The notes under the pieces: model-generated
The model's database searches: none
What the model was told of the DNA's origin: nothing
What the model saw: the letters and a program-made list of their open reading frames with translations, nothing else
IMG/VR virus record: IMGVR_UViG_3300008012_000004
Coordinates: 1-41,308 of that record
Reading direction: 5' to 3' (one strand)
Origin: a virus
DNA: 41,308 bases
Shown: in pieces, positions 1 through 41,308 of the stretch
Layout: each line of letters opens with the position of its first letter
How positions within the stretch are numbered: position 1 is the first letter of the stretch
Program-made: the position numbers and the translations under genes

Positions 1-1644
1 GATGGGGCGCTTGACTACCTTGCGGGTCAGGTGCAGGGAGCGCAGCCACTCAAGGTCCATGGGGTCCAGCCGGCGGCGCATGATCTGCTTGGCCTCCCCA
101 AGGATGTCGAGGTACAGGTCAGCAGGCTGGTCCGTGGGTAGGACATTGGTAGCCCGTGCCGTAGCTGAGTCACGCAGCAGCAGCGACCATATCTGGAACC
201 CGTTGTTGCTGGCGTCGATCCTGATGGGGAGGTGCGACGGGTAGCTCGGGTCCTTCCACACCTGCGCCACCTCCATGCACCAGCGAAGGAACATCCACGG
301 CTCCTTGGCCTCGGTCCAGAAGGGTTCGCTCAGGGAGTAGGCAGCGCAGCTCTCGATGTACTCCCGGTGCCCAGCCACCCAGTCGAGCTGGTGCTTGCGG
401 GTGCCGGACACACCGTAGAGGGAGGCACCGTAGGCCAGCAGGTCGTCCATGCCCTGCCCCACCGGCTTGCCTTCACTGAACTCCAGCAGCGCCTTGGCTA
501 GGTCACTGCCCTGGGGGGACAGCGTCGAGGCGGCGGGGTACATGCGTCCCCTGAAGTCACAGTAGTGGACGAAGAACAGGTCATTGCCGGCGGCGTGCTT
601 GGCAAGGGACAGCAGGGAGGCGACCCTCACCCTCTGCCCCTGCTCCCTCTTCCTCACGGTGTGGATGCGAAACCTGTCCCTCCGGTACTGCATCCACTCC
701 TCCGAGTCCTCCGCCACCTGGGGGGCAGGGGGGAAGGGGGTCAGCTCCTGAGAGGGGACGCCGGTGGCCGGCATGCCACGCCTGAAGGCAGTGTCGAGCA
801 GCTCCAGCATCTGCTCGTTCACGCGCCACGCTGTCTCCTGTTGCAGGTTCAGTGCGCGGTGTACCTCGGGGGCCGGCGAGGACTGCGGGTGCTTGCTCCG
901 CACCATGGCAGTCTCGATGGTGGGGAACCCACCGGAGTAGTCGCGCCACGGTACGGGCGGCGCGTTGTACAGAGGGGGAAGCAGCGGGCGTAGTAGCTCG
1001 GCCTGTGCGTGCGCCCCGGACAGCCATGAAACAAGGCGCTCGGAGGCGGCTACATACTGCACCGTCTTACGCTTCCCCCGTCGTTCTGTTGTCAGCTCCA
1101 CCAGACCAGTCGTCTCGATGAAGAGGGACAGTGCCACCATCCCTGCCTTGCATCGTATCTCAACAGGGGGGAGAGGGTGCCCCCCTTCTTGGTTCATGTA
1201 CGACGCCAGCCGGCTGGCCTTGTGAGTCTCGGACCAGTAGGGCAGCAGCTTCCGCATGCCCCGGGCGAACCTAGGATCTGTCCTGTCTGCCTTGTGCAGG
1301 ATGGACTCGACTGCCAGGGCTGTGCCGATCTTGATGCACAGGGTGGAGTACACGCGGGGGCTGTGCGCCCCGTCGAGGATGGCCCTGCATACCAGCAGGG
1401 CGCGGAGGTCGGGAGCCAAGGACTCCAGCAGGTCCACCGCACTATGGTTCCTGCCGGGTCCTTGGCTGGCCCGGGTAACCCACCCGGAGAGAGCCGCCGC
1501 CAGAGGGGGGACCACCTGCCCCAGCAGGTTCGCACCTACCAGGGTGTCAGTCTCCCGCTCCTGTGCCTGAGCCTTCCGCCACTGGGAACGGTAGCGGTCC
1601 ACTCCAGCACGCAAGGCGCGAGTCTCCTCCGGGCGAGCGTTCAC
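1..1644 (-). CDS. T7-like single-subunit RNA polymerase, N-terminal two thirds (continues at 41185)
   Basis: DNA-directed RNA polymerase that would transcribe middle and late phage genes. The gene runs 1644 to 1 and, across the circular junction, 41185 to 40514, giving about 771 residues against 883 in T7 gp1. Recognisable blocks are FIETTGLVEL, DFRGRMYPAA and PIRIDASNNGFQ, where D477 matches catalytic T7 Asp537. The start chosen is the GTG at 1644-1642, which overlaps the integrase TGA as GTGA. No good Shine-Dalgarno lies before it. A GAGGAG at 1629-1624 would suit TTG at 1614, and GTG at 1602 is a third option. The N-terminal domain before YSTLCIKIGT is roughly 35 residues shorter than in T7. 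The reading frame was translated by eye from 1644 to 1 and is open throughout. Confidence 0.93.
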   Translation of the reverse strand, partial: MNARPEETRALRAGVDRYRSQWRKAQAQERETDTLVGANLLGQVVPPLAAALSGWVTRASQGPGRNHSAVDLLESLAPDLRALLVCRAILDGAHSPRVYSTLCIKIGTALAVESILHKADRTDPRFARGMRKLLPYWSETHKASRLASYMNQEGGHPLPPVEIRCKAGMVALSLFIETTGLVELTTERRGKRKTVQYVAASERLVSWLSGAHAQAELLRPLLPPLYNAPPVPWRDYSGGFPTIETAMVRSKHPQSSPAPEVHRALNLQQETAWRVNEQMLELLDTAFRRGMPATGVPSQELTPFPPAPQVAEDSEEWMQYRRDRFRIHTVRKREQGQRVRVASLLSLAKHAAGNDLFFVHYCDFRGRMYPAASTLSPQGSDLAKALLEFSEGKPVGQGMDDLLAYGASLYGVSGTRKHQLDWVAGHREYIESCAAYSLSEPFWTEAKEPWMFLRWCMEVAQVWKDPSYPSHLPIRIDASNNGFQIWSLLLRDSATARATNVLPTDQPADLYLDILGEAKQIMRRRLDPMDLEWLRSLHLTRKVVKRPI

Positions 1645-2633
1645 TGGATGGCGTCGATGGCTGCGGTGTAGTCGTGCGGTGCGAGGTGGGAGTAGCGCAC
1701 CGTGGTCTGGATGTCCTGATGGCGGGCCAAGTCCTTGACCGTCTTCAGGGGGACGCCGGCCTGCACCAGCCGAGACACGAAGGTGTGCCGGCAGGTGTGC
1801 CACACGAAGTCCGGGTCGTCCAGCTTGTTCAGCTCCCCGCGCATCAGCTCCCAGTAGTACCGGCAGGTGTGCTTCGTGCATTCGCGGAACGGCCCACGCT
1901 CAGGGTCGAACAGCCGCCGGCGCATGACCACCTCCCGGGCACGGGCAGTGAGAGGCACGCTGCCTGCGTTGGCTCCCTTCTGCTCCCACACCGTGACCCG
2001 CTCGTCGGTGATGTCCTTCCAGTCCAGGGCCAGTGCCTCCCCCAGCCGCAGGCCGGTGTCACACAGGAACAGGAACAGGTCGGCATGCACAGGGGACCGG
2101 CTGTCCAGCTCACGGTGGATCCGCTCGATGTCCTCTGTGGAGTAGAAGGACACCCGCCCCTTGGACTCACGCCGGCGGGGGATCTGCGGCTTGTCCTTCA
2201 TCCAGCCCATGCGGTGGGCGTAGCTGAACATCTTGGACAGCACCGCCAGCTTGCGGTTCACGGTCGCCGGCGTGCTGCCCTCGGCCACCTTGTCTGCGAA
2301 CTGCTGCACCGTCAGCTCGTTGATGTAGGAGAGCTTTAGGTCCCTGCCGAAGTATTGCTCGACCGCTCGCATGTTGCAGCGGATGGTCGGGGCAGACTTG
2401 GCGTCCTTCCAGTAGCGGTCCCAGGTCTTGTCCAGTAGTTCCCCGAAGGTGGTGGGCACGCTCGATGCCTGCCGCACACCGGGCGGGGTGGCGTTGCCTT
2501 GGTTGAAGGCAAGCAGAGTCTCGGCATGCCATAGCTCGGCAGCCTCTCGGGTCTTGAAGGTGCGCCGGTAGCGTGCGCCGGCAGGTGAGGTGAGGTCCGC
2601 CATGAAGGCGGTCCCTCTGCGTCTGATAGTCAT
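1641..2633 (-). CDS. int: Tyrosine recombinase / phage integrase
   Basis: Site-specific recombinase of the lambda integrase family, 330 residues. The N-terminal half (about 40-150) fits a SAM-like core-binding domain. The C-terminal catalytic domain shows R196 in TGLRLGEAL, a candidate Lys at 219, H279-x-x-R282 in HTCRHTF, H305 in LARHQ and the nucleophile Y314 in VRYSHLAP, so every key residue is present. The ATG at 2633 overlaps the TGA of the preceding gene as ATGA; longer N-terminal extensions in this frame run through that gene and look spurious. It lies immediately before the RNA polymerase gene, as in several integrase-bearing marine podoviruses. No attachment site is visible at its edges because both neighbours overlap it. 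Confidence 0.95.
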   Translation of the reverse strand: MTIRRRGTAFMADLTSPAGARYRRTFKTREAAELWHAETLLAFNQGNATPPGVRQASSVPTTFGELLDKTWDRYWKDAKSAPTIRCNMRAVEQYFGRDLKLSYINELTVQQFADKVAEGSTPATVNRKLAVLSKMFSYAHRMGWMKDKPQIPRRRESKGRVSFYSTEDIERIHRELDSRSPVHADLFLFLCDTGLRLGEALALDWKDITDERVTVWEQKGANAGSVPLTARAREVVMRRRLFDPERGPFRECTKHTCRYYWELMRGELNKLDDPDFVWHTCRHTFVSRLVQAGVPLKTVKDLARHQDIQTTVRYSHLAPHDYTAAIDAIQ

Positions 2634-2857
2634 GGCTTGGTGAGGTACTTGGTGGTCAGCTTCCAGATCGAACCATTGCCAACCCACTGGGGAACCTTGC
2701 CCCGTGCAGCCAGCCACTGGTGAACCCACTGGGCTCGTCCGTTCCGGGAGAAGAAGTCGTCGTCGCAGGCGCGGCAGATCCACCACCCACCGAACAGACG
2801 GTGGGGGCGGTCCTTACTGCACCAGTCACAGGTCGAGGGCTTTGGCTTGCTCTGCAT
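2630..2857 (-). CDS. Small zinc-finger-like protein of unknown function
   Basis: 75 residues. Two CxxC pairs (CDWC near residue 10 and CRAC near residue 29) about 19 residues apart suggest a zinc ribbon, followed by a tryptophan-rich basic tail (WVHQWLAARGK, IWKLTTKYL). I do not recognise the family. The start is ATG 2857, preceded by GAGGAG with 7-nt spacing; it overlaps the end of the upstream gene by 32 nt. It is translationally joined to the integrase through ATGA, so a DNA-binding or accessory role beside the integrase is possible but is only inference from position. Confidence 0.7.
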   Translation of the reverse strand: MQSKPKPSTCDWCSKDRPHRLFGGWWICRACDDDFFSRNGRAQWVHQWLAARGKVPQWVGNGSIWKLTTKYLTKP

Positions 2858-4280: not shown

Positions 4281-4350
4281 CGTCCCGGACACCCGCCGCA
4301 CTCTGGGCTGGGTGTTTCGGCCCGACGCCTCGGGCCTCATCAGCGGGTCA
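4281..4350 (-). ncRNA. Hammerhead ribozyme A (type I)
   Basis: Minus-strand core CUGAUGAG (4343-4336), stem II of 7 bp (4336-4330 with 4325-4319, loop GGCG), CGAAAC (4319-4314), stem III CACCC/GGGUG (4314-4310 with 4294-4290) closed by a 15-nt loop, then U4289 and C4288, giving a GUC cleavage triplet. Cut predicted between 4288 and 4287. Stem I is open-ended: CCCG (4347-4344) with CGGG (4287-4284), only 4 bp, then an A-A mismatch. The TGA stop of the upstream 86-aa gene lies within stem I. All invariant core bases of the hammerhead family are present. The short stem I is the weak point. Confidence 0.85.
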
Positions 4351-4662: not shown

Positions 4663-4691
4663 ATTGTACTCCCCGACCAGACACCTGTCAA
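4663..4691 (-). promoter_or_regulatory. Promoter P1 (sigma-70 type, near consensus)
   Basis: TTGACA (4691-4686) and TACAAT (4668-4663) separated by 17 bp on the minus strand, in the spacer between the ArdC gene and the 86-aa early gene. This is a perfect -35 and a 5/6 -10, the strongest host-type promoter seen in the window. It would be read by the host polymerase before phage polymerase exists. Confidence 0.88.
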
Positions 4692-4718: not shown

Positions 4719-5663
4719 TCACTCGGCCTCGGCGTACTCCGCCTTGCGGGCGGCGAGCGCAGCAGCCTTGTCTCCTCGGGCCAGGATGAGGGCCGCAGCC
4801 TTGGCTGCCTTGCCGGTGGCCTGCACGATCCACTTGGGGTTGTCCTTGAGCTGCTTCGCCCAGCTCGCAAGGTAGCTCGCGCTGTTATCCACCACCTCGG
4901 TGTGGATGCCAGCCTCGGAGGCCAGGAACAGGGCGGTGAACTCGGCCACCAGCTCCTCGAAGGCATAGATGTGGCCCCCGAATCCATCGGACTCGGTGAT
5001 GCCCTTGCGGGCCAGCCGGTCAGCGTGCCCGGTGCTGTGGCCCAGCTCATGGAACACGGTGGTCCAGTAGTCGGACTCGGTGTTGAAGCTAGAGAGGGGC
5101 GGCACGGTCACCGAGTCCTTGCTCGGGCGGTAGAAGGCAGACGCCCCCTCCTCCTTGAAGGACGGCCCGAAGCCTCCCTCGATGTAGCCCTTGGCAATGG
5201 CCTCGGCCTGGGTGTTGGCTGCCTTGCAGTCCTCCTCGGTCCAGTCCTCGACGGTGGTGGGGACGCCGCACACGGTGGTGGGGAACCCGTTCGCCCAGTC
5301 AGCCTGGGTGGACTGGAACACGGTGAAGTGCCGCAGGAAGGGGATCAGCTTCTTCTCGCCGGTGACCTTGTCCTTGGTCGGGATCATCTTCCAGTAGGTC
5401 ACGATGGTGCCCTTCTCACCCTTGCGGACCTGACCGCCGGCCTGCTGGATGGCCTTGTAGGTGCCCCACCAGCTCGGCTGTCCGCCGGCCAGAAGGTCGA
5501 GCCACCAAGCGTTGCCGCCTCGGTAGAGCTTGCCGGTGCTAAGGGAACGGGCTCCCGTGGTGGCGGTGTTGCCGACCCAGGTCTTCACCCAGGGGTTCAC
5601 ACCGGCTTCGAGGAGGGCGACGACCTGATCGGTCACGAGTTGGTAGGTGTCTTTGCGTTGCAT
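4719..5663 (-). CDS. ardC: ArdC-type anti-restriction protein with zincin metallopeptidase domain
   Basis: 314 residues. The N-terminal 130 or so (YQLVTDQVVALLEAGVNPW, GGNAWWL, KGEKGTIVTYWK, FTVFQSTQ) match the ssDNA-binding half of the ArdC family; the C-terminal half carries the zinc motif HELGHSTGH (H205, E206, H209) and a downstream YAFEELVAEF helix that supplies the usual third ligand. Known ArdC proteins from conjugative plasmids protect incoming single-stranded DNA from restriction. Early expression from P2 fits a role like that of T7 Ocr, though the mechanism would differ. Start ATG 5663 has the AGACAGCCATG leader; the longer frame start at 5708 overlaps the promoter. Both catalytic and metal-binding residues are intact. 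Confidence 0.9.
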   Translation of the reverse strand: MQRKDTYQLVTDQVVALLEAGVNPWVKTWVGNTATTGARSLSTGKLYRGGNAWWLDLLAGGQPSWWGTYKAIQQAGGQVRKGEKGTIVTYWKMIPTKDKVTGEKKLIPFLRHFTVFQSTQADWANGFPTTVCGVPTTVEDWTEEDCKAANTQAEAIAKGYIEGGFGPSFKEEGASAFYRPSKDSVTVPPLSSFNTESDYWTTVFHELGHSTGHADRLARKGITESDGFGGHIYAFEELVAEFTALFLASEAGIHTEVVDNSASYLASWAKQLKDNPKWIVQATGKAAKAAALILARGDKAAALAARKAEYAEAE

Positions 5664-5671
5664 GGCTGTCT

Positions 5672-5687
5672 GCGGGACTGTCCCCGC
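5672..5687 (-). other. Leader hairpin downstream of promoter P2
   Basis: On the minus strand GCGGG and CCCGC enclose a 6-nt loop GACAGU, close to the expected 5' end of the ArdC messenger. It resembles the hairpin at 4636-4650 and stands immediately before the GACAGCCATG start. Confidence 0.5.
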
Positions 5688-5698
5688 TAGGTGGGTGG

Positions 5699-5726
5699 AG
5701 TATACCACGCTGGACTACGGTGTCAA
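5699..5726 (-). promoter_or_regulatory. Promoter P2 (sigma-70 type) for the ArdC gene
   Basis: TTGACA (5726-5721) and TATACT (5704-5699), 16-bp spacing, minus strand. It lies between ribozyme B and the ArdC start codon. Confidence 0.85.
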
Positions 5727-5751: not shown

Positions 5752-5805
5752 ACCCGGACACCCCGGAGGGTGTTTCGTCCCCGGTCCTGGGACTCATCAG
5801 CGGGT
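5752..5805 (-). ncRNA. Hammerhead ribozyme B (type I)
   Basis: Minus-strand CUGAUGAG (5800-5793); stem II GUCCC/GGGAC (5793-5789 with 5781-5777, 7-nt loop); CGAAAC (5777-5772); stem III ACACCC/GGGUGU (5773-5768 with 5763-5758) capped by a UCCG tetraloop; C17 at 5757, so the cut falls between 5757 and 5756. Stem I is ACCCG (5805-5801) with CGGGU (5756-5752), 5 bp. The UGA stop of the upstream zinc-motif gene is bases 2-4 of the core, so coding and catalytic constraints overlap. Promoter P2 follows directly. Confidence 0.88.
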
Positions 5806-6717
5806 GGCGGAGCTGACCCTGTAGGCCTTGCTGGGGCGCTTGCCGAATCCTACGGAGGGGTCATCATCGGACACCTCGACGGTGACGGTGACGCCCACGG
5901 TGTCCCCCACAGACCAGTCCCTCCAGCAGTCCTGGGGGATGGTCAGGTGGACCACGACCACGCCGGCCTCGGTCTGGACCTTGACGGTGCCACGCTTGCG
6001 GAGCCCGTAGGCGTTCGTGACCAATCGCTCCGATACCAGCTCACCCTCGACCACCTGCCGACCAGCGGTCAGGGTGCCACGGGGATCGGCGGCGGTCTGG
6101 GCCTCGGTGTGCAGCTTCCGCAGCAGGGTGAGCTGGGCCTCGCTCAGTCCCCAGCGGGCACCCTTGCCGACGAGATCCTGGGCGAGGCGGACACCGTGGT
6201 GGGAGATGCGGCTGGTATCGGCGTCCCAGGTGTACGGGTCGGTGACGCCCCAGTCCTGAAGGCGGGCAGCGTACTCTGCCTCGGCCTTGGCCTTGGCCTT
6301 GGCAGCCTTGGCCTGCCGCCGCAGGGTGGCCTGGGCGCGGCGGCGCAGGTACTTGCGGACCAGCTCGACGGCGTCCTCCAGGGACATCAGCTTGACCTCA
6401 GTGGGGGGCAGGCCCTTCACACTGCACTGGAGGCAGCGGTCGCCGTGGGTCAGGTTGAAGGAGTACCGACCTGAGCCCCCGCACCGAGGGCAGACGGACT
6501 CGACCTCGGTGCCGAGGTAGCCGCAGGCCAGGGAGGCCACGATGGCCTCGGGGACCTGCCAACCGTCGAGCATGTCCAGGGCATGGTCCCAGCCCTGCAC
6601 CTTGCTGGCGGTGCGCTCGACCACCTGCTCGGCGGTGAGGTTGTGTTCGATGCTGTAGATCGGCAGCTTGAGTCCGGCGGGGCGGTCGAAGACCAGGGTA
6701 GAGAGGCTGTATCGCAT
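5797..6717 (-). CDS. Early zinc-motif protein (306 aa), unknown function
   Basis: 306 residues. Residues 76-98 form a CPRC-x15-CLQC zinc site (C76, C79, C95, C98) of the DnaJ/rubredoxin-knuckle kind. A long basic Ala/Lys/Arg-rich helix (about 120-150: RRRAQATLRRQAKAAKAKAK) follows, then a central helical region and a C-terminal beta-rich segment (TVKVQTEAGVVVVHLTIP, VGVTVTVEV) that looks like an OB-like or barrel domain. The architecture suggests nucleic-acid binding. No family recognised. Start ATG 6717; the frame extends upstream to 6951 but that part runs through ribozyme C and P3. Transcribed from P3; leader holds a hairpin and ends AGCACAGCCATG. Confidence 0.8.
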   Translation of the reverse strand: MRYSLSTLVFDRPAGLKLPIYSIEHNLTAEQVVERTASKVQGWDHALDMLDGWQVPEAIVASLACGYLGTEVESVCPRCGGSGRYSFNLTHGDRCLQCSVKGLPPTEVKLMSLEDAVELVRKYLRRRAQATLRRQAKAAKAKAKAEAEYAARLQDWGVTDPYTWDADTSRISHHGVRLAQDLVGKGARWGLSEAQLTLLRKLHTEAQTAADPRGTLTAGRQVVEGELVSERLVTNAYGLRKRGTVKVQTEAGVVVVHLTIPQDCWRDWSVGDTVGVTVTVEVSDDDPSVGFGKRPSKAYRVSSATR

Positions 6718-6767: not shown

Positions 6768-6795
6768 AGCATAGCACGCTTGACAGGGGTGTCAA
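6768..6795 (-). promoter_or_regulatory. Promoter P3 (sigma-70 type)
   Basis: TTGACA (6795-6790) and TATGCT (6773-6768) with 16-bp spacing on the minus strand, between ribozyme C and the 306-aa gene. A second TGACA-like string lies within the spacer (CTTGACACCCCTGTCAAG is an inverted repeat), which could be bound by a symmetric regulator. Confidence 0.82.
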
Positions 6796-6823: not shown

Positions 6824-6877
6824 CCCCGGACACCCCGAAGGGTGTTTCGGCCCCGATCCTGGGCCTCATCAGCGGGC
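6824..6877 (-). ncRNA. Hammerhead ribozyme C (type I)
   Basis: Minus-strand CUGAUGAG (6872-6865); stem II GGCCC/GGGCC (6865-6861 with 6853-6849, 7-nt loop AGGAUCG); CGAAAC (6849-6844); stem III ACACCC/GGGUGU (6845-6840 with 6835-6830) with a UUCG tetraloop; C17 at 6829 and cut between 6829 and 6828. Stem I CCCG/CGGG (6876-6873 with 6828-6825), 4 bp. Compared with ribozyme B the stem II pairs differ on both sides (UCCC/GGGA against GCCC/GGGC), a compensatory pattern. The stop codon of the 91-aa gene is inside the core. Confidence 0.88.
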
Positions 6878-7144
6878 GGCGGAGGCCTGCTGGTAGGCCC
6901 GGATGAAGTCCCAGAGAGGGCTGCCAGCAGGGAGGCTGACATCCCGGACATAGTCCCCGGAGGCCTCGACGGCGGCGATCAGGCGGTCGGCATCCTGGGC
7001 GGCGCAGGTGAACCTGCTGCCTCCGCAGCGCACCAGCACCTGGGTGAGGCGGGTGCTTTCACGGCGCGTCAGGGCTGCGACCTCCGTCTCGGTGAGGAAC
7101 CCGTGCTGCTGCTGGATGGTCTGGAAGAGGGTGGTGGTACTCAT
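6869..7144 (-). CDS. Early hypothetical protein (91 aa)
   Basis: 91 residues, start MSTTTLFQTIQQQHGFLTETEV. Helix-rich: an LTETEVAALTRRESTRLTQVLVRCG stretch could form a helix-turn-helix-like unit, followed by an acidic/aliphatic helix ending in YQQASAAR. No family recognised. The start is set by the ACAGACAGCCATGAG leader shared with neighbouring genes; upstream in-frame residues translate ribozyme D and are not counted. Its TGA is part of the ribozyme C core (two UGA codons in a row, CGC UGA UGA). Confidence 0.72.
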   Translation of the reverse strand: MSTTTLFQTIQQQHGFLTETEVAALTRRESTRLTQVLVRCGGSRFTCAAQDADRLIAAVEASGDYVRDVSLPAGSPLWDFIRAYQQASAAR

Positions 7145-7160
7145 GGCTGTCTGTGGGTGA

Positions 7161-7215
7161 GGGTGTTTCGGCCTTCTGGGCCTCATCAGCGGGGCAGTAG
7201 CAGCCCCGGACACCC
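7161..7215 (-). ncRNA. Hammerhead ribozyme D (type III)
   Basis: Here stem III is the open helix: GGGUGU (7215-7210) with ACACCC (7166-7161). C17 is 7209 and the cut falls between 7209 and 7208. Stem I is closed, CGGGGC/GCCCCG (7208-7203 with 7195-7190), loop UGCUACU. Core CUGAUGAG (7189-7182), stem II GGCC/GGCC (7182-7179 with 7173-7170, loop CAGAA), CGAAAC (7170-7165). Closed stems I and II with loops of 7 and 5 nt are the usual arrangement for loop-loop contacts that speed natural hammerheads. It lies between the 99-aa and 91-aa early genes, 17 nt before the latter's start codon. Confidence 0.92.
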
Positions 7216-7225
7216 GGAGGTGTCA
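7161..7225 (-). repeat. 65-bp repeat, copy 1 (holds ribozyme D)
   Basis: Bases 7161-7225 and 7541-7605 are identical except at one position (a at 7185, g at 7565). The repeat covers the whole ribozyme plus a few bases up to the stop codon of the upstream gene; the flanking genes are unrelated in sequence. Confidence 0.92.
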
Positions 7226-7522: not shown

Positions 7523-7540
7523 GGCTGTCAGTGTTGGGGT

Positions 7541-7595
7541 GGGTGTTTCGGCCTTCTGGGCCTCGTCAGCGGGGCAGTAGCAGCCCCGGACACCC
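7541..7595 (-). ncRNA. Hammerhead ribozyme E (type III)
   Basis: Same layout as ribozyme D: stem III GGGUGU/ACACCC (7595-7590 with 7546-7541), C17 at 7589 with the cut between 7589 and 7588, closed stem I CGGGGC/GCCCCG (7588-7583 with 7575-7570), core CUGACGAG (7569-7562), stem II GGCC/GGCC (7562-7559 with 7553-7550), CGAAAC (7550-7545). The only difference from D over 65 bp is C for U at core position 7, the one position where hammerheads tolerate any base. It separates the 120-aa and 99-aa early genes. Confidence 0.92.
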
Positions 7596-7605
7596 GGAGG
7601 TGTCA
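7541..7605 (-). repeat. 65-bp repeat, copy 2 (holds ribozyme E)
   Basis: Second copy of the repeat at 7161-7225, 64 of 65 bases identical. Its end supplies the TGA stop of the 120-aa gene, as copy 1 does for the 99-aa gene, so the unit can be placed after a gene and bring its own stop codon. Confidence 0.92.
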
Positions 7606-8368: not shown

Positions 8369-8528
8369 GCAGCCTCGGCGGAGGGTGGGCCGGGGTCGGT
8401 CGCGGGGGCACGGGGGGGAGTAGCCGGCCCCCGCTTACATATACCCCCTCAGATTTTTGTGTCAGAATTGGGGAGGGGGTCCATGAGGGACCATCACCAC
8501 CACATTTAGCACTCGGGGTACAGAGTCA

Positions 8529-8538
8529 GAACATGTTC
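8529..8538. promoter_or_regulatory. 10-bp palindrome GAACATGTTC
   Basis: Perfect palindrome, followed on the plus strand by AAACAGTTC so that a third half-site-like GTTC lies nearby. Possible operator in the left-end region; spacing does not fit the known alphaproteobacterial (GTTC-N7-GTTC) LexA site. Confidence 0.3.
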
Positions 8539-8625
8539 AAACAGTTCACAACCCCAGCAGGTCTAGTAACTGTCTTTAGACATGGTCTTCTATGGTCTTG
8601 ATACCCCTTAGCTAACTCTTCCAAC

Positions 8626-8655
8626 ACCTTATAAGACCTTATAAGACCTTATAAG
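8626..8655. repeat. Three tandem copies of ACCTTATAAG
   Basis: Exact 10-bp unit repeated three times, one turn of B-DNA per unit, in otherwise non-repetitive DNA. T7 and relatives carry arrays of short AT-containing repeats next to their terminal redundancy; a similar place in this genome is likely. Confidence 0.85.
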
Positions 8656-8718
8656 CCCCCCTACCCCCCAGAGCTACCTCCCATTGGGACCCTATTCAGG
8701 GTTGTCCCGCATGAGATA

Positions 8719-8755
8719 GGGGGTGAATCTAGGGCAACTACCTAGACCCACCCCC
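8719..8755. terminator. Strong imperfect hairpin (possible terminator or end structure)
   Basis: GGGGGTG (8719-8725) pairs with CACCCCC (8749-8755), and TCTAGG (8728-8733) with CCTAGA (8741-8746), leaving a 2x2 internal loop and a 7-nt apical loop: 13 bp in all. There is no U tract on either strand, so a classical terminator is not assured; it could stop late transcription or mark the DNA ends. Confidence 0.55.
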
Positions 8756-8764
8756 ACAATAACT

Positions 8765-8843
8765 GACCACCAAGACCCCGACTGAGGGAAGCCGGGATGG
8801 GAGTTGAGAAGTGTAAGGCTCTCTTGCTTTGGTCTTGGTGGTC
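8765..8843. repeat. 13-bp perfect inverted repeat enclosing a nested stem
   Basis: GACCACCAAGACC (8765-8777) and GGTCTTGGTGGTC (8831-8843) are exact reverse complements 53 bp apart. Between them CCCGACT (8776-8782 region) and AGCCGGG (8789-8795 region) form a second stem with one G-U pair when read as minus-strand RNA, and GAGA/TCTC a third, so the whole can fold as a branched RNA. Function unknown. Confidence 0.7.
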
Positions 8844-8850
8844 GTGCGGT

Positions 8851-9109: not shown

Positions 9110-10801
9110 TCACATCCAAGTGTGGGGGTCGTTGCGCTGTCCGAAGGTGGAGGTGTTCATGATATTCTCCAGCTCGCGTTCCAGCAGCTCGTCTCTCCGG
9201 GCTTTCATCTGCTCGTCAGCAGTGATGCCGGCAGCCTCGACCCAGTATCCAACGGCCATGGAGAGGACATCGAGGCGGTCGTCGTGGATCAGTGCCCCTT
9301 TTTCGCGGCAGATCCGGGTGAGCTGGTGGAAGAGTCGGTATTGGTTCCGCTTCTCAGCCGGCAGATGCTCTACACTCCGGTAGTCCTGTTCGATCAGGCG
9401 GGGAGAGACGACCAGCTTATGCTGATTCAATATTGGCTCAAGCGTGTCAATGATTCGCTTCTCCTTCTGGATGTTGTGACGGACCTCTTCGGTAGTGACC
9501 GGGTACACCTTCCTGAGATACGGCTTGAGCAGTTCGAGGAACATCCCGTCCCCAAAGTTACTTTCTACGAGAACAAGGTTCACCTTGTGTCGCTTGGCTT
9601 CCTGTGCCAGCTTTTCGAGGACATCCTTGCTGTATCCGCCGGGGAGCCCAGTGCATTCCTGAACATACATGAAGCCGTTCAGGATCTTGACTATTGCGTA
9701 GGTCGTCTCGTCCGTTCCCCGTCCACTGGGGTCGATAGCCATGACGGACCCCGTGTACGGTAGGAAGTCCCCGTCAATCGCCATTGGGCGGTGGTAATGA
9801 TCCCCAGCGAACCCCACATTGGGCAGGTCCTTGAGGGTGTACTCGCCACTGCCGGCCCAGATCAGGTTCTCGGGGGCCTTGAGGGGGTCAATGTCCAGAA
9901 CGATCAGGTCCCTGAGCTTCAGCGGGAACTTGAAGTCGTCTTCCAGGGACGGGTCCAGCATGAACTGGAGGGCGAAGCCCGATTTGCCATAAGAGGCTTC
10001 CCGTTCTGCTAGGTCGTGGCCGTTGAAGCGCAGGGGGTCGGTGGGCTCCCCCACCATGTCCTCCTGCCCCTCCATCTCTTGCAGCACCTTGGGGGCCAGG
10101 GTGGCCCCGTAACGCTGCCTGAGGGCCTTGGAGGGGTAGCGGGCCGGCCAGATCCTCGTCTCGTAGCCACGGTCTGGGAGGGCGTGGTAGAGGCTTCCTG
10201 CGTCCGTCTGAGGCGTGCCCAGGAACACGATCTCGCCGCCCGGTTTGACGATGGCCTCGAACTCCTTGACCAGCTCGGACAGCTTGTCCCGCATGCCCTG
10301 GGTGGCAGCGTTGTTCAGGGACTCAGCGTCGTCGGAGATGATGAGGTCGGCGCGAGATCCGGTGAGCTGGCCGGTGATCCCCACAGACTTCACAGACGGC
10401 GCGTGAGCCGCCTTAGCCGGCCCCACATCGAAGGACACCTTGGAGGTCCGCTGGTCCTCTGAGGGCCGCAGGTGGGCCAGCAGAGGCATGTCCCAGATCA
10501 GGCGCTGGGTGAAGGTCGAGAAGTCGTCTGCTCGGACCTTCGAGGCTGACACCACCAGCACATTTATCTGGGGGTCCATCAGGAGCCGCCAGACGGCGTA
10601 AGTGCTTGTCAGGTAAGACTTTCCGACGCCTCGGAAGGCGCAGATGATGCGCCGCTTGGGGCCTCCCTGGAGGTAGTCCGCAATGTCATACTGGACGGGC
10701 GTCGGATCAGGGAGTCCAAGGTGCGCCCACACCAGATAGACGAAGTTGCGGAAGTCCTTCAGCTCCTCCGGGATCTCGTACTGGACGGGCGCTTTGCTCA
10801 T
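9110..10801 (-). CDS. terL: Terminase large subunit (gp19-like)
   Basis: 563 residues. DNA-packaging motor ATPase and nuclease. Walker A is AFRGVGKS (residues 55-62), Walker B LIISDDAE (near 150), coupling motif region IVFLGTPQ, and the RNase H-like nuclease begins with MAIDPSGRGTDETTYAIV and continues with LVLVESNFGDG and HDDRLDVL, which supply the acidic metal ligands. All these are arranged as in T7 gp19, and the length is close to the T7 protein (586). ATG overlaps the small-subunit TGA as ATGA. Confidence 0.96.
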   Translation of the reverse strand: MSKAPVQYEIPEELKDFRNFVYLVWAHLGLPDPTPVQYDIADYLQGGPKRRIICAFRGVGKSYLTSTYAVWRLLMDPQINVLVVSASKVRADDFSTFTQRLIWDMPLLAHLRPSEDQRTSKVSFDVGPAKAAHAPSVKSVGITGQLTGSRADLIISDDAESLNNAATQGMRDKLSELVKEFEAIVKPGGEIVFLGTPQTDAGSLYHALPDRGYETRIWPARYPSKALRQRYGATLAPKVLQEMEGQEDMVGEPTDPLRFNGHDLAEREASYGKSGFALQFMLDPSLEDDFKFPLKLRDLIVLDIDPLKAPENLIWAGSGEYTLKDLPNVGFAGDHYHRPMAIDGDFLPYTGSVMAIDPSGRGTDETTYAIVKILNGFMYVQECTGLPGGYSKDVLEKLAQEAKRHKVNLVLVESNFGDGMFLELLKPYLRKVYPVTTEEVRHNIQKEKRIIDTLEPILNQHKLVVSPRLIEQDYRSVEHLPAEKRNQYRLFHQLTRICREKGALIHDDRLDVLSMAVGYWVEAAGITADEQMKARRDELLERELENIMNTSTFGQRNDPHTWM

Positions 10802-11007
10802 TCAGCGGCCTTGAAAGGTACGATGGATGCGAGGTCGCGCAGCGATGTCTGCTGCTTCTCTCCGACATCTATCTGGTTGTCCTTCAGGAACTTCACAGCC
10901 ACGCTGATGTCTCCAGTCGTGGCATCCCCCGACTGGATGCGGGAGATCAGCTCATCCGCGACCATCCGGTGGAGTTGAGTCAGTAGCTGTTCGGGGGTCT
11001 GTGTCAT
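10798..11007 (-). CDS. terS: Terminase small subunit (gp18-like)
   Basis: 69 residues, MTQTPEQLLTQLHRMVADELISRI... with the DISVAVKFLKDNQID segment that is typical of T7-like small terminases (DNA-maturase A). It recognises the concatemer for packaging. It is shorter than T7 gp18 (89 aa). Its ATG (11007-11005) shares bases with the ATG of the plus-strand gene through the palindrome CATG, and its Shine-Dalgarno would have to lie inside that gene's antisense; AAGTTATCC is weak. Position between holin and large terminase matches T7 order. Confidence 0.88.
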   Translation of the reverse strand: MTQTPEQLLTQLHRMVADELISRIQSGDATTGDISVAVKFLKDNQIDVGEKQQTSLRDLASIVPFKAAE

Positions 11008-11305
11008 GGATAACTTGCTGTTGAGGTCTGTGGAAGTTCTCAAGGACGAGGTCCCGCTCGATCTTCCGGTGAGAGTCACCCGCCCCAAGAAGATGCAAGA
11101 GTGGGGAACTTGCGAGAAACTTGCGGATCCTGACCGCTTTCTGATACGGGTGCATAAAGAGCTGGAACCCGACTGGGCCGTCGCCATTCTAGCGCACGAA
11201 TGGGCACATGCCCGAACATGGCTAGAGGACCCCCGCATGGATCACCACGGTCCTGAGTGGGGAGTGGCCTACGCACGGTGCTACCAAGCCCTGTTTGGCC
11301 GCTAG
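11006..11305 (+). CDS. Plus-strand zinc metallopeptidase-like protein (99 aa)
   Basis: The only convincing plus-strand gene. 99 residues with the zinc motif H64-E65-W-A-H68 in AILAHEWAHARTW and a second block DHHGPEWGVAYARCY (H80/H81, E84) that could give the third ligand and the substrate pocket, as in SprT-like peptidases. Similar short HEWAH/DHGPEWG proteins occur in marine podoviruses. Role unknown: processing of a virion or host protein, or cell-wall cleavage. Start codon overlaps the terS start through CATG; stop codon overlaps the holin stop through CTAG, so it fills the space between two opposing genes exactly. No strong plus-strand promoter is visible. Confidence 0.8.
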   Translation: MDNLLLRSVEVLKDEVPLDLPVRVTRPKKMQEWGTCEKLADPDRFLIRVHKELEPDWAVAILAHEWAHARTWLEDPRMDHHGPEWGVAYARCYQALFGR

Positions 11306-11514
11306 AACTTGTTGGACAGGTACGACACCAGCACCGAAACACCGCTGGCGATCACCCCAGTCGCGCCCAGCAGGAAAGACTTGGATGTCTCCAGCTCGCG
11401 GATGCGGGCTTCGAGTTCCTCCAAGTCCTTCTGTAGCACCTTCATGCCTTGCAGAAGTGCGTCCACCTTCCCTTCGAGCCTGCCAAGGCCCAATAGGATC
11501 TCCCTGTCGTCCAT
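11302..11514 (-). CDS. Holin-like coiled-coil membrane protein
   Basis: 70 residues. Residues 10-45 form a coiled coil (LGRLEGKVDALLQGMKVLQK, DLEELEARIRELE) and 48-67 a hydrophobic span (FLLGATGVIASGVSVLVSYL) with a short polar end. This is the layout of XhlA-type holins and of the T7 gp17.5 position, between tail fibre and small terminase. A holin would permeabilise the inner membrane at lysis. Start ATG 11514 after TAA AAA of the upstream gene. The charged N-terminal coiled coil could alternatively anchor another protein. Confidence 0.7.
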   Translation of the reverse strand: MDDREILLGLGRLEGKVDALLQGMKVLQKDLEELEARIRELETSKSFLLGATGVIASGVSVLVSYLSNKF

Positions 11515-40513: not shown

Positions 40514-41308
40514 TCAGGTTGCGAAGTATCGAGACTCCGCGATCATCGTCGGGTTGAAGTCACGCACCATGGGTGGCGCGGGAACTTCGATGTCGAGGGA
40601 CTTGTGAAGTTCCTCAAGGGGACTCTCCTCTCCGCCGAACAGCTCGGCAGCACATGAGAGGAGAGCGTTCCGTAGGGCGGGCAGGTCGGCAGCGTGCGTG
40701 CCGAAGCAGTCATGCACCAGCGCGAAGTTATCGACGCCATGCTGGCCGGCACGGACCACCGCCATGGTGGCAAGGGCAGCATCGAATGAGTGCGTCAGGT
40801 TAGGCATGGCTGTCGAGACACACTTGACCTTGTCGAGTTGGTCGGTGTCTTCGGTCAGCTTAGTGATCCGGTAGCTGCGTCCGCAATAGGTCTTGACCCT
40901 CACGAACTTAGGTTTCCGGTAGTCGTTCCTAACCTCCAGCCCAGTAGGGGTTTGCCACTCCAGCACCTTGCCTTGGCTCGCCAGGATGCGCGTCACTTCC
41001 TGCACCCACTCCATGCCGGCCATGACTGCGGGGCACCGCTTGGCTACCAGCTCGCGCAGCAGACGGGCGAGGTGGAAGGACGCCTTGCCCATGTTGGTGA
41101 AGGCATCGAAGCCTCCCTCCTCCTCGACCACGGCCACGATGGAGTCGGCCATACCCCGCAGCGTGGCGGAGTAGGGCAGCGTCATGATGGGGCGCTTGAC
41201 TACCTTGCGGGTCAGGTGCAGGGAGCGCAGCCACTCAAGGTCCATGGGGTCCAGCCGGCGGCGCATGATCTGCTTGGCCTCCCCAAGGATGTCGAGGTAC
41301 AGGTCAGC
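40514..41308 (-). CDS. T7-like RNA polymerase, C-terminal part (joined to 1-1644)
   Basis: Carboxy-terminal palm and fingers of the same polymerase; bases 41186-41308 are the repeat of 1-123. Numbering from GTG 1644, K545 and Y553 in KRPIMTLPYSA match T7 Lys631 and Tyr639, which bind and select the incoming nucleotide. D707 in VHDCFGTH matches the second metal-binding Asp812. The protein ends in SRYFAT, a counterpart of the T7 C-terminus (SDFAFA) that sits in the active site. The ssDNA-binding protein gene starts two bases after the TGA. In T7 relatives this enzyme recognises short phage promoters; I could not derive a secure consensus for them here. Confidence 0.95.
   Translation of the reverse strand, partial: ADLYLDILGEAKQIMRRRLDPMDLEWLRSLHLTRKVVKRPIMTLPYSATLRGMADSIVAVVEEEGGFDAFTNMGKASFHLARLLRELVAKRCPAVMAGMEWVQEVTRILASQGKVLEWQTPTGLEVRNDYRKPKFVRVKTYCGRSYRITKLTEDTDQLDKVKCVSTAMPNLTHSFDAALATMAVVRAGQHGVDNFALVHDCFGTHAADLPALRNALLSCAAELFGGEESPLEELHKSLDIEVPAPPMVRDFNPTMIAESRYFAT
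41186..41308. repeat. Terminal 123-bp direct repeat (circular assembly overlap)
   Basis: These 123 bases are identical to bases 1-123. They lie inside the RNA polymerase reading frame, whereas true terminal repeats of T7-like phages lie outside genes, between the last late gene and the early promoters. The simplest reading is an assembler overlap from a circular or terminally redundant molecule, so the unique length is 41,185 bp. Confidence 0.9.

Follow-up and report, generated by a model that had tools for sequence, protein, structure and literature searches.

What is a single plus-strand open reading frame doing between the lysis-region genes and the terminase small-subunit gene (terS) of a phage whose other recognisable genes all lie on the minus strand? 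The window, meaning the whole stretch of 41,308 nucleotides that was analysed, is most likely a complete T7-like genome, closed into a circle of about 41.2 kb, because a direct repeat of 123 nt stands at its two ends (1-123 = 41186-41308) and a phage RNA polymerase gene spans them. It carries the genes that mark the Autographiviridae type, namely a phrog_414 RNA polymerase, T7-like primase/helicase, DNA polymerase, portal and terminase. The inverted frame, here called spr, runs from an ATG at 11006 to a TAG ending at 11305 (99 codons). The features discussed below are the following:

11006..11305, plus strand: spr, inverted gene for a 99-aa SprT-like zinc metallopeptidase (open reading frame; PF10263 at 26.6 bits against a cut-off of 25.6; frame kept under purifying selection)
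11005..11008, both strands: CATG, two bases of which are common to the spr ATG and the terS ATG (present in 14/14 inverted loci)
11195..11209, plus strand: HEWAH, residues 64-68, zinc ligands and catalytic Glu (H64, E65 and H68 invariant in 49 homologues)
11246..11248, plus strand: His81, third zinc ligand, in HHGPEWG (invariant in 49 homologues)
11302..11305, both strands: CTAG, where the stops of spr and of the gene converging on it overlap by 4 nt (neighbour and spacing vary among relatives)
10798..11007, minus strand: terS, terminase small subunit, T7 gp18-like (PF11123 3e-14; phrog_891 1.3e-13)
9110..10801, minus strand: terL, terminase large subunit, T7 gp19-like (PF22530, phrog_38)
11302..11514, minus strand: 70-aa coiled-coil protein with a hydrophobic C-terminus, putatively holin-like (weak match to phrog_5225, of unknown function, 9e-5; homologues at the same place in relatives)
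1641..2786, minus strand: tyrosine integrase, upstream of the phage RNA polymerase gene (phrog_1 9.5e-58)

The first-pass annotation had described spr as the only plus-strand gene, joined to terS through CATG and to the holin-like gene through CTAG. Both junctions are present in the window sequence, as the terS ATG is the complement of CAT at 11005-11007 and the stop of the 70-aa gene is the complement of CTA at 11302-11304. As to the solitary orientation, none of the eight other frames tested (seven plus, one minus) had a PHROG match. With regard to the terS start, the frame is open further upstream in the window and would give 146 aa from 11238. This N-terminal extension was considered and rejected: a long extension is absent from relatives and homology starts at the 11007 ATG, which, judged by this comparison, is the right start.

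A conserved frame for a minimal SprT-like peptidase

Long antisense open reading frames are plentiful in this GC-rich genome, so that an open frame by itself is little evidence for spr. The search for the same inverted gene in relatives, suggested at the outset, was successful: 14 IMG/VR contigs carry an inverted spr adjoining terS, a count that includes L001, which is the same phage as the window. The plus frame is unbroken in all 14, and relatives with a disrupted frame, which the first-pass annotation had said would speak against the gene, were sought among these contigs and none was seen. When 11 distinct spr sequences were compared, the plus frame was intact in every one, while the other five frames mostly contained stops. 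Between the window and its relatives in clade A (below) pS reaches 0.75-0.90, near saturation, against a pN of 0.28-0.29, and the dN/dS of the pair L002 and L003 is about 0.09. Protein identity among relatives ranges from 40 to 62%, with saturated synonymous sites. By this measure of sequence conservation, 11006-11305 is shown to be a genuine protein-coding gene. The notion that the plus frame encodes nothing, and is open just because of GC-rich antisense sequence or of the terS extension, could draw on the many long antisense frames of the genome and on the terS frame that is open back to 11238. Nonetheless, its probability is now negligible: the conserved plus frame with saturated synonymous sites and the invariant zinc ligands have refuted it already, and the Pfam and fold matches of the product and the relatives without a long terS extension also stand against it.

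The first-pass annotation had called the product a likely metallopeptidase from HEWAH and DHHGPEWG (residues 79-86), and this assignment has been strengthened. Spr exceeds the gathering cut-off of the SprT-like family (PF10263), as listed above, and the family is matched by 46 of the 49 viral Spr homologues, in all of which L62, H64, E65, H68 and H81 are invariant, that is, an HExxH motif and a third His ligand. The AlphaFold model has a mean pLDDT of 93.8 and superimposes on the Spartan protease 6mdw with a Z-score of 9.3 and an rmsd of 2.9 over 96 residues (23% identity). In the structural ranking Spartan 6mdw is tied with AQ_1354, with Wss1, minigluzincins and IrrE behind, and a profile search of PDB sequences places SPRTN first (E 0.008). 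The window protein has no match to Peptidase_M78 (PF06114) up to E 1, and only 2 of the 49 homologues match that family. The protease core fills all 99 residues, with no zinc ribbon, DNA-binding region or other domain, so the DNA-binding zinc or basic region that lies beside the protease core in SPRTN and Wss1 is absent. Profile matches and the structural model together thus show Spr as a predicted minimal SprT-like zinc metallopeptidase, and the identity and architecture of the spr locus are near certain.

The start-codon overlap and its history

The exact fit between two neighbours, as originally described, is true of the window; among relatives its 5' end is conserved, but its 3' end varies. 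The CATG overlap of spr and terS is found in 14 of the 14 inverted loci, and the open frame of spr offers no start codon other than this ATG in the window, L004, L017, L020, L021, L022 and L023 (in the window, 11006 is the sole ATG, GTG or TTG). At the other end, spr and the gene that converges on it have stops overlapping by 4 bases in clade A (window, L002, L003, L004, L013), but the identity of this neighbour changes: its product is lipoprotein-like in L002-L004, L013 has a weakly holin-like protein of 136 aa at this place, and the window has its 70-aa holin-like one. The other half of the carriers, clade B (L015-L023), shows a gap of 3-72 nt after spr. Since the carriers of spr form one clade in the terL tree, the 5' fit is, on the evidence of these sequences, an inherited feature; the 3' fit is not. 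A C or T before the stop (CTAG, CTAA, TTAG) creates a stop on the other strand, so that a convergent gene end is easily produced there and the perfect 3' fit requires no special explanation.

Relatives have exchanged the gene that separates the holin-like gene from spr, which is either lipoprotein-like or weakly holin-like (minus strand; for example L002:3282-3629, L013:3333-3743 and L020:6370-6672), and the window is without the lipoprotein-like gene that its relatives hold at this place. In another T7-like clade, a lysine-rich ORF of 192 aa, unrelated to spr, is inverted between terS and terL (L134:2101-2679 and L135:3464-4042, listed on the minus strand); it had no PHROG match and no significant Pfam match.

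In a terL tree of 63 sequences, the carriers of inverted spr form a single clade with 99/97 support, corresponding to one inferred change, and terL is about 59% identical between the two carrier branches. These comparisons indicate that the locus shows an inverted spr kept without intergenic space in a late operon over deep divergence. The Spr protein tree gives 75/87 for a single origin of the inverted copies, which neither proves nor excludes it. In this tree L014, a different phage with spr on the strand of its neighbours, groups with clade A, and spr has thus also passed between phages. Outside the clade, spr homologues lie in other contexts, mostly on the same strand as their neighbours, and this variety points to an accessory character. 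Among other T7-like phages, they follow terL directly in L028, L037 and L078, whereas in L030, L032, L033 and L055 they overlap an integrase gene at its end; the family also adjoins terL in L006-L008.

Counterparts in other phages

The spr locus combines two known things, phage SprT-like proteins and inverted accessory genes, and its unusual point is the terS start-codon overlap kept through deep divergence. With regard to the protein, Spr resembles the protease domain of Spartan/SPRTN (PDB 6mdw, 6mdx; PF10263) in the HExxH motif with a third His and in a core fold over 96 residues, but comprises only 99 aa and is without the C-terminal zinc ribbon, the DNA-binding region or any other domain. 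The MPC00488 proteins of mycobacteriophages (PMC12363180) and BFVD entries likewise have a phage-encoded SprT-like domain of unassigned role, and the MPC00488 proteins have been likened to human SPRTN by structure (PMC12363180). In contrast to MPC00488, spr sits in T7-like podovirus genomes, inverted at the terS start. With regard to placement, STMMW_20121 of ST64B (PMC7067206) is also oriented against the late genes of a phage with an integrase, whereas spr has no intergenic space for a promoter or terminator of its own and shares its start codon with terS. The uncultured phage MedDCM-OCT-S45-C18 and Roseobacter phage CRP-114 (Autographiviridae) have the same terminase type and an integrase; unlike in the window, their terS slot is without an inverted gene. 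Phage SprT-like proteases are widespread and have no assigned role, and an inverted spr tied to terS, together with an integrase in one genome, offers a defined setting for distinguishing a role in the lysogen from one in the lytic cycle.

Transcription and possible roles of spr

We hold, with a little better than even confidence, that spr is a minimal SprT-like peptidase gene of the moron type, inverted at terS in integrase-encoding T7-like phages, with its own transcription and a late shut-off, and that its product clips proteins. Loci of this kind in prophages lie antisense to lytic genes and have their own promoter, and published transcriptomics treats the antisense position as characteristic of prophage accessory loci (PMC7067206); from the genes alone, spr is antisense to the lytic genes of an integrase-encoding phage. 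All clade members with enough sequence to show it carry a tyrosine integrase gene (window, L002, L013, L017, L020, L021, L022), which makes it plausible that spr is expressed as an accessory ("moron") gene of a prophage. Integrases are also common among T7-like relatives without spr, so the link is not specific to it. No prophage with spr was found in genome contigs, the one close match being a phage contig binned into a MAG. Between the terL-side and early genes of the window, a 439-nt non-coding stretch (8412-8850) holds a threefold TTATAAGGT repeat on the minus strand and is a candidate genome-end or attachment region.

On the moron-type reading, spr transcription would be independent of the late operon and would most likely take place in the prophage or early. 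Its promoter would lie within terS/terL or upstream of them, and late transcription running antisense through the gene would shut it off. The product might act like Spartan and Wss1 and clip proteins that are bound or cross-linked to DNA, or alternatively, in the manner of IrrE and CapP, cut one particular regulatory protein; both suggestions are weaker than that on transcription. Lacking a DNA-binding or zinc-ribbon extension, Spr would need a partner or a direct substrate. As to the substrate, the structural model makes Spartan-like removal of proteins from DNA a first guess and cleavage of a regulator a second. We infer, in sum, a role in lysogeny and cleavage of DNA-protein crosslinks or of a repressor.

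The proposal that a host promoter drives spr in the prophage is plausible given the integrases of this group of phages, but a plus-strand scan for promoters of the sigma-70 type was negative: in none of nine members (the window and eight relatives) did a site ahead of spr score above shuffles. A weak sigma-70 site near -393 recurs in several members, within conserved terL coding sequence. Synonymous sites in terS, terL and spr gave no clear signal of the conservation that a promoter or ribosome-binding site would leave, no Shine-Dalgarno sequence at normal spacing is evident before spr, and there is no consistent terminator or shared hairpin at its 3' end. The spr transcript had also been predicted to be antisense to late mRNA. 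This applies to its 5' and 3' untranslated parts, which would overlap coding mRNA, but the spr coding region faces only untranslated late RNA. The 5' leader of the message would be antisense to terS, perhaps terL, and late readthrough would run antisense to all of spr, so mutual interference of the two transcripts is real on paper.

Other roles have to be weighed against a moron-type one. Spr may instead act in the lytic cycle, in lysis or packaging, and owe its place by the holin-like and terminase genes to this, with an unrecognised inverted phage promoter. Its retention at the terS border across the clade and the adjacency of the family to terL in L006-L008, L028 and L037 would fit, but spr alone is oriented away from the late genes, the contexts of many homologues are unrelated, and none of the repeated promoter-like motifs recurs on the plus strand of the window; we regard a lytic role as unlikely. 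Quite unlikely, too, is an ImmA/IrrE-like function, in which Spr would control induction by cleaving a repressor of the phage or the host; the structural matches do include IrrE and ImmA-like folds, and relatives occupy integrase-linked positions, yet sequence and fold are nearer to Spartan than to M78, a family that the window Spr does not match.

The transcript could also matter more than the protein, with the spr 5' leader, antisense to the terS start, keeping terS and packaging silent in the prophage. The start-codon overlap in every member agrees with this, and in prophage BTP1 an antisense RNA within late genes brings about superinfection exclusion (PMC7067206); since the Spr protein is clearly under selection, no promoter was found and a single ancestral insertion suffices for the overlap, we regard the proposal as very doubtful. 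It is similarly improbable that the shared start codons form an exclusive switch, in which the spr message would mask the terS start and block packaging while late transcription silences the protease. If true, a single CATG would link an enzyme of lysogeny, or of the early stage, with commitment to DNA packaging.

The search for a repeated phage-promoter motif returned early leaders with putative hammerhead ribozymes, outside the terS region. In this early region, three near-consensus sigma-70 promoters (10-11/12 matches; 5699-5726, 4663-4691 and 6768-6795, minus strand) lie near hammerhead-like RNAs, which are found around small genes and an anti-restriction gene (4719-5708) at 7160-7216, 7540-7596, 5760-5806 and 6845-6903 on the minus strand, with a repeat core near 4310-4346. 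The best of them scores 44.2 bits, just below the Rfam cut-off of 48.5, and hammerheads have been described flanking prophage genes, ardA among them (PMC3088659).
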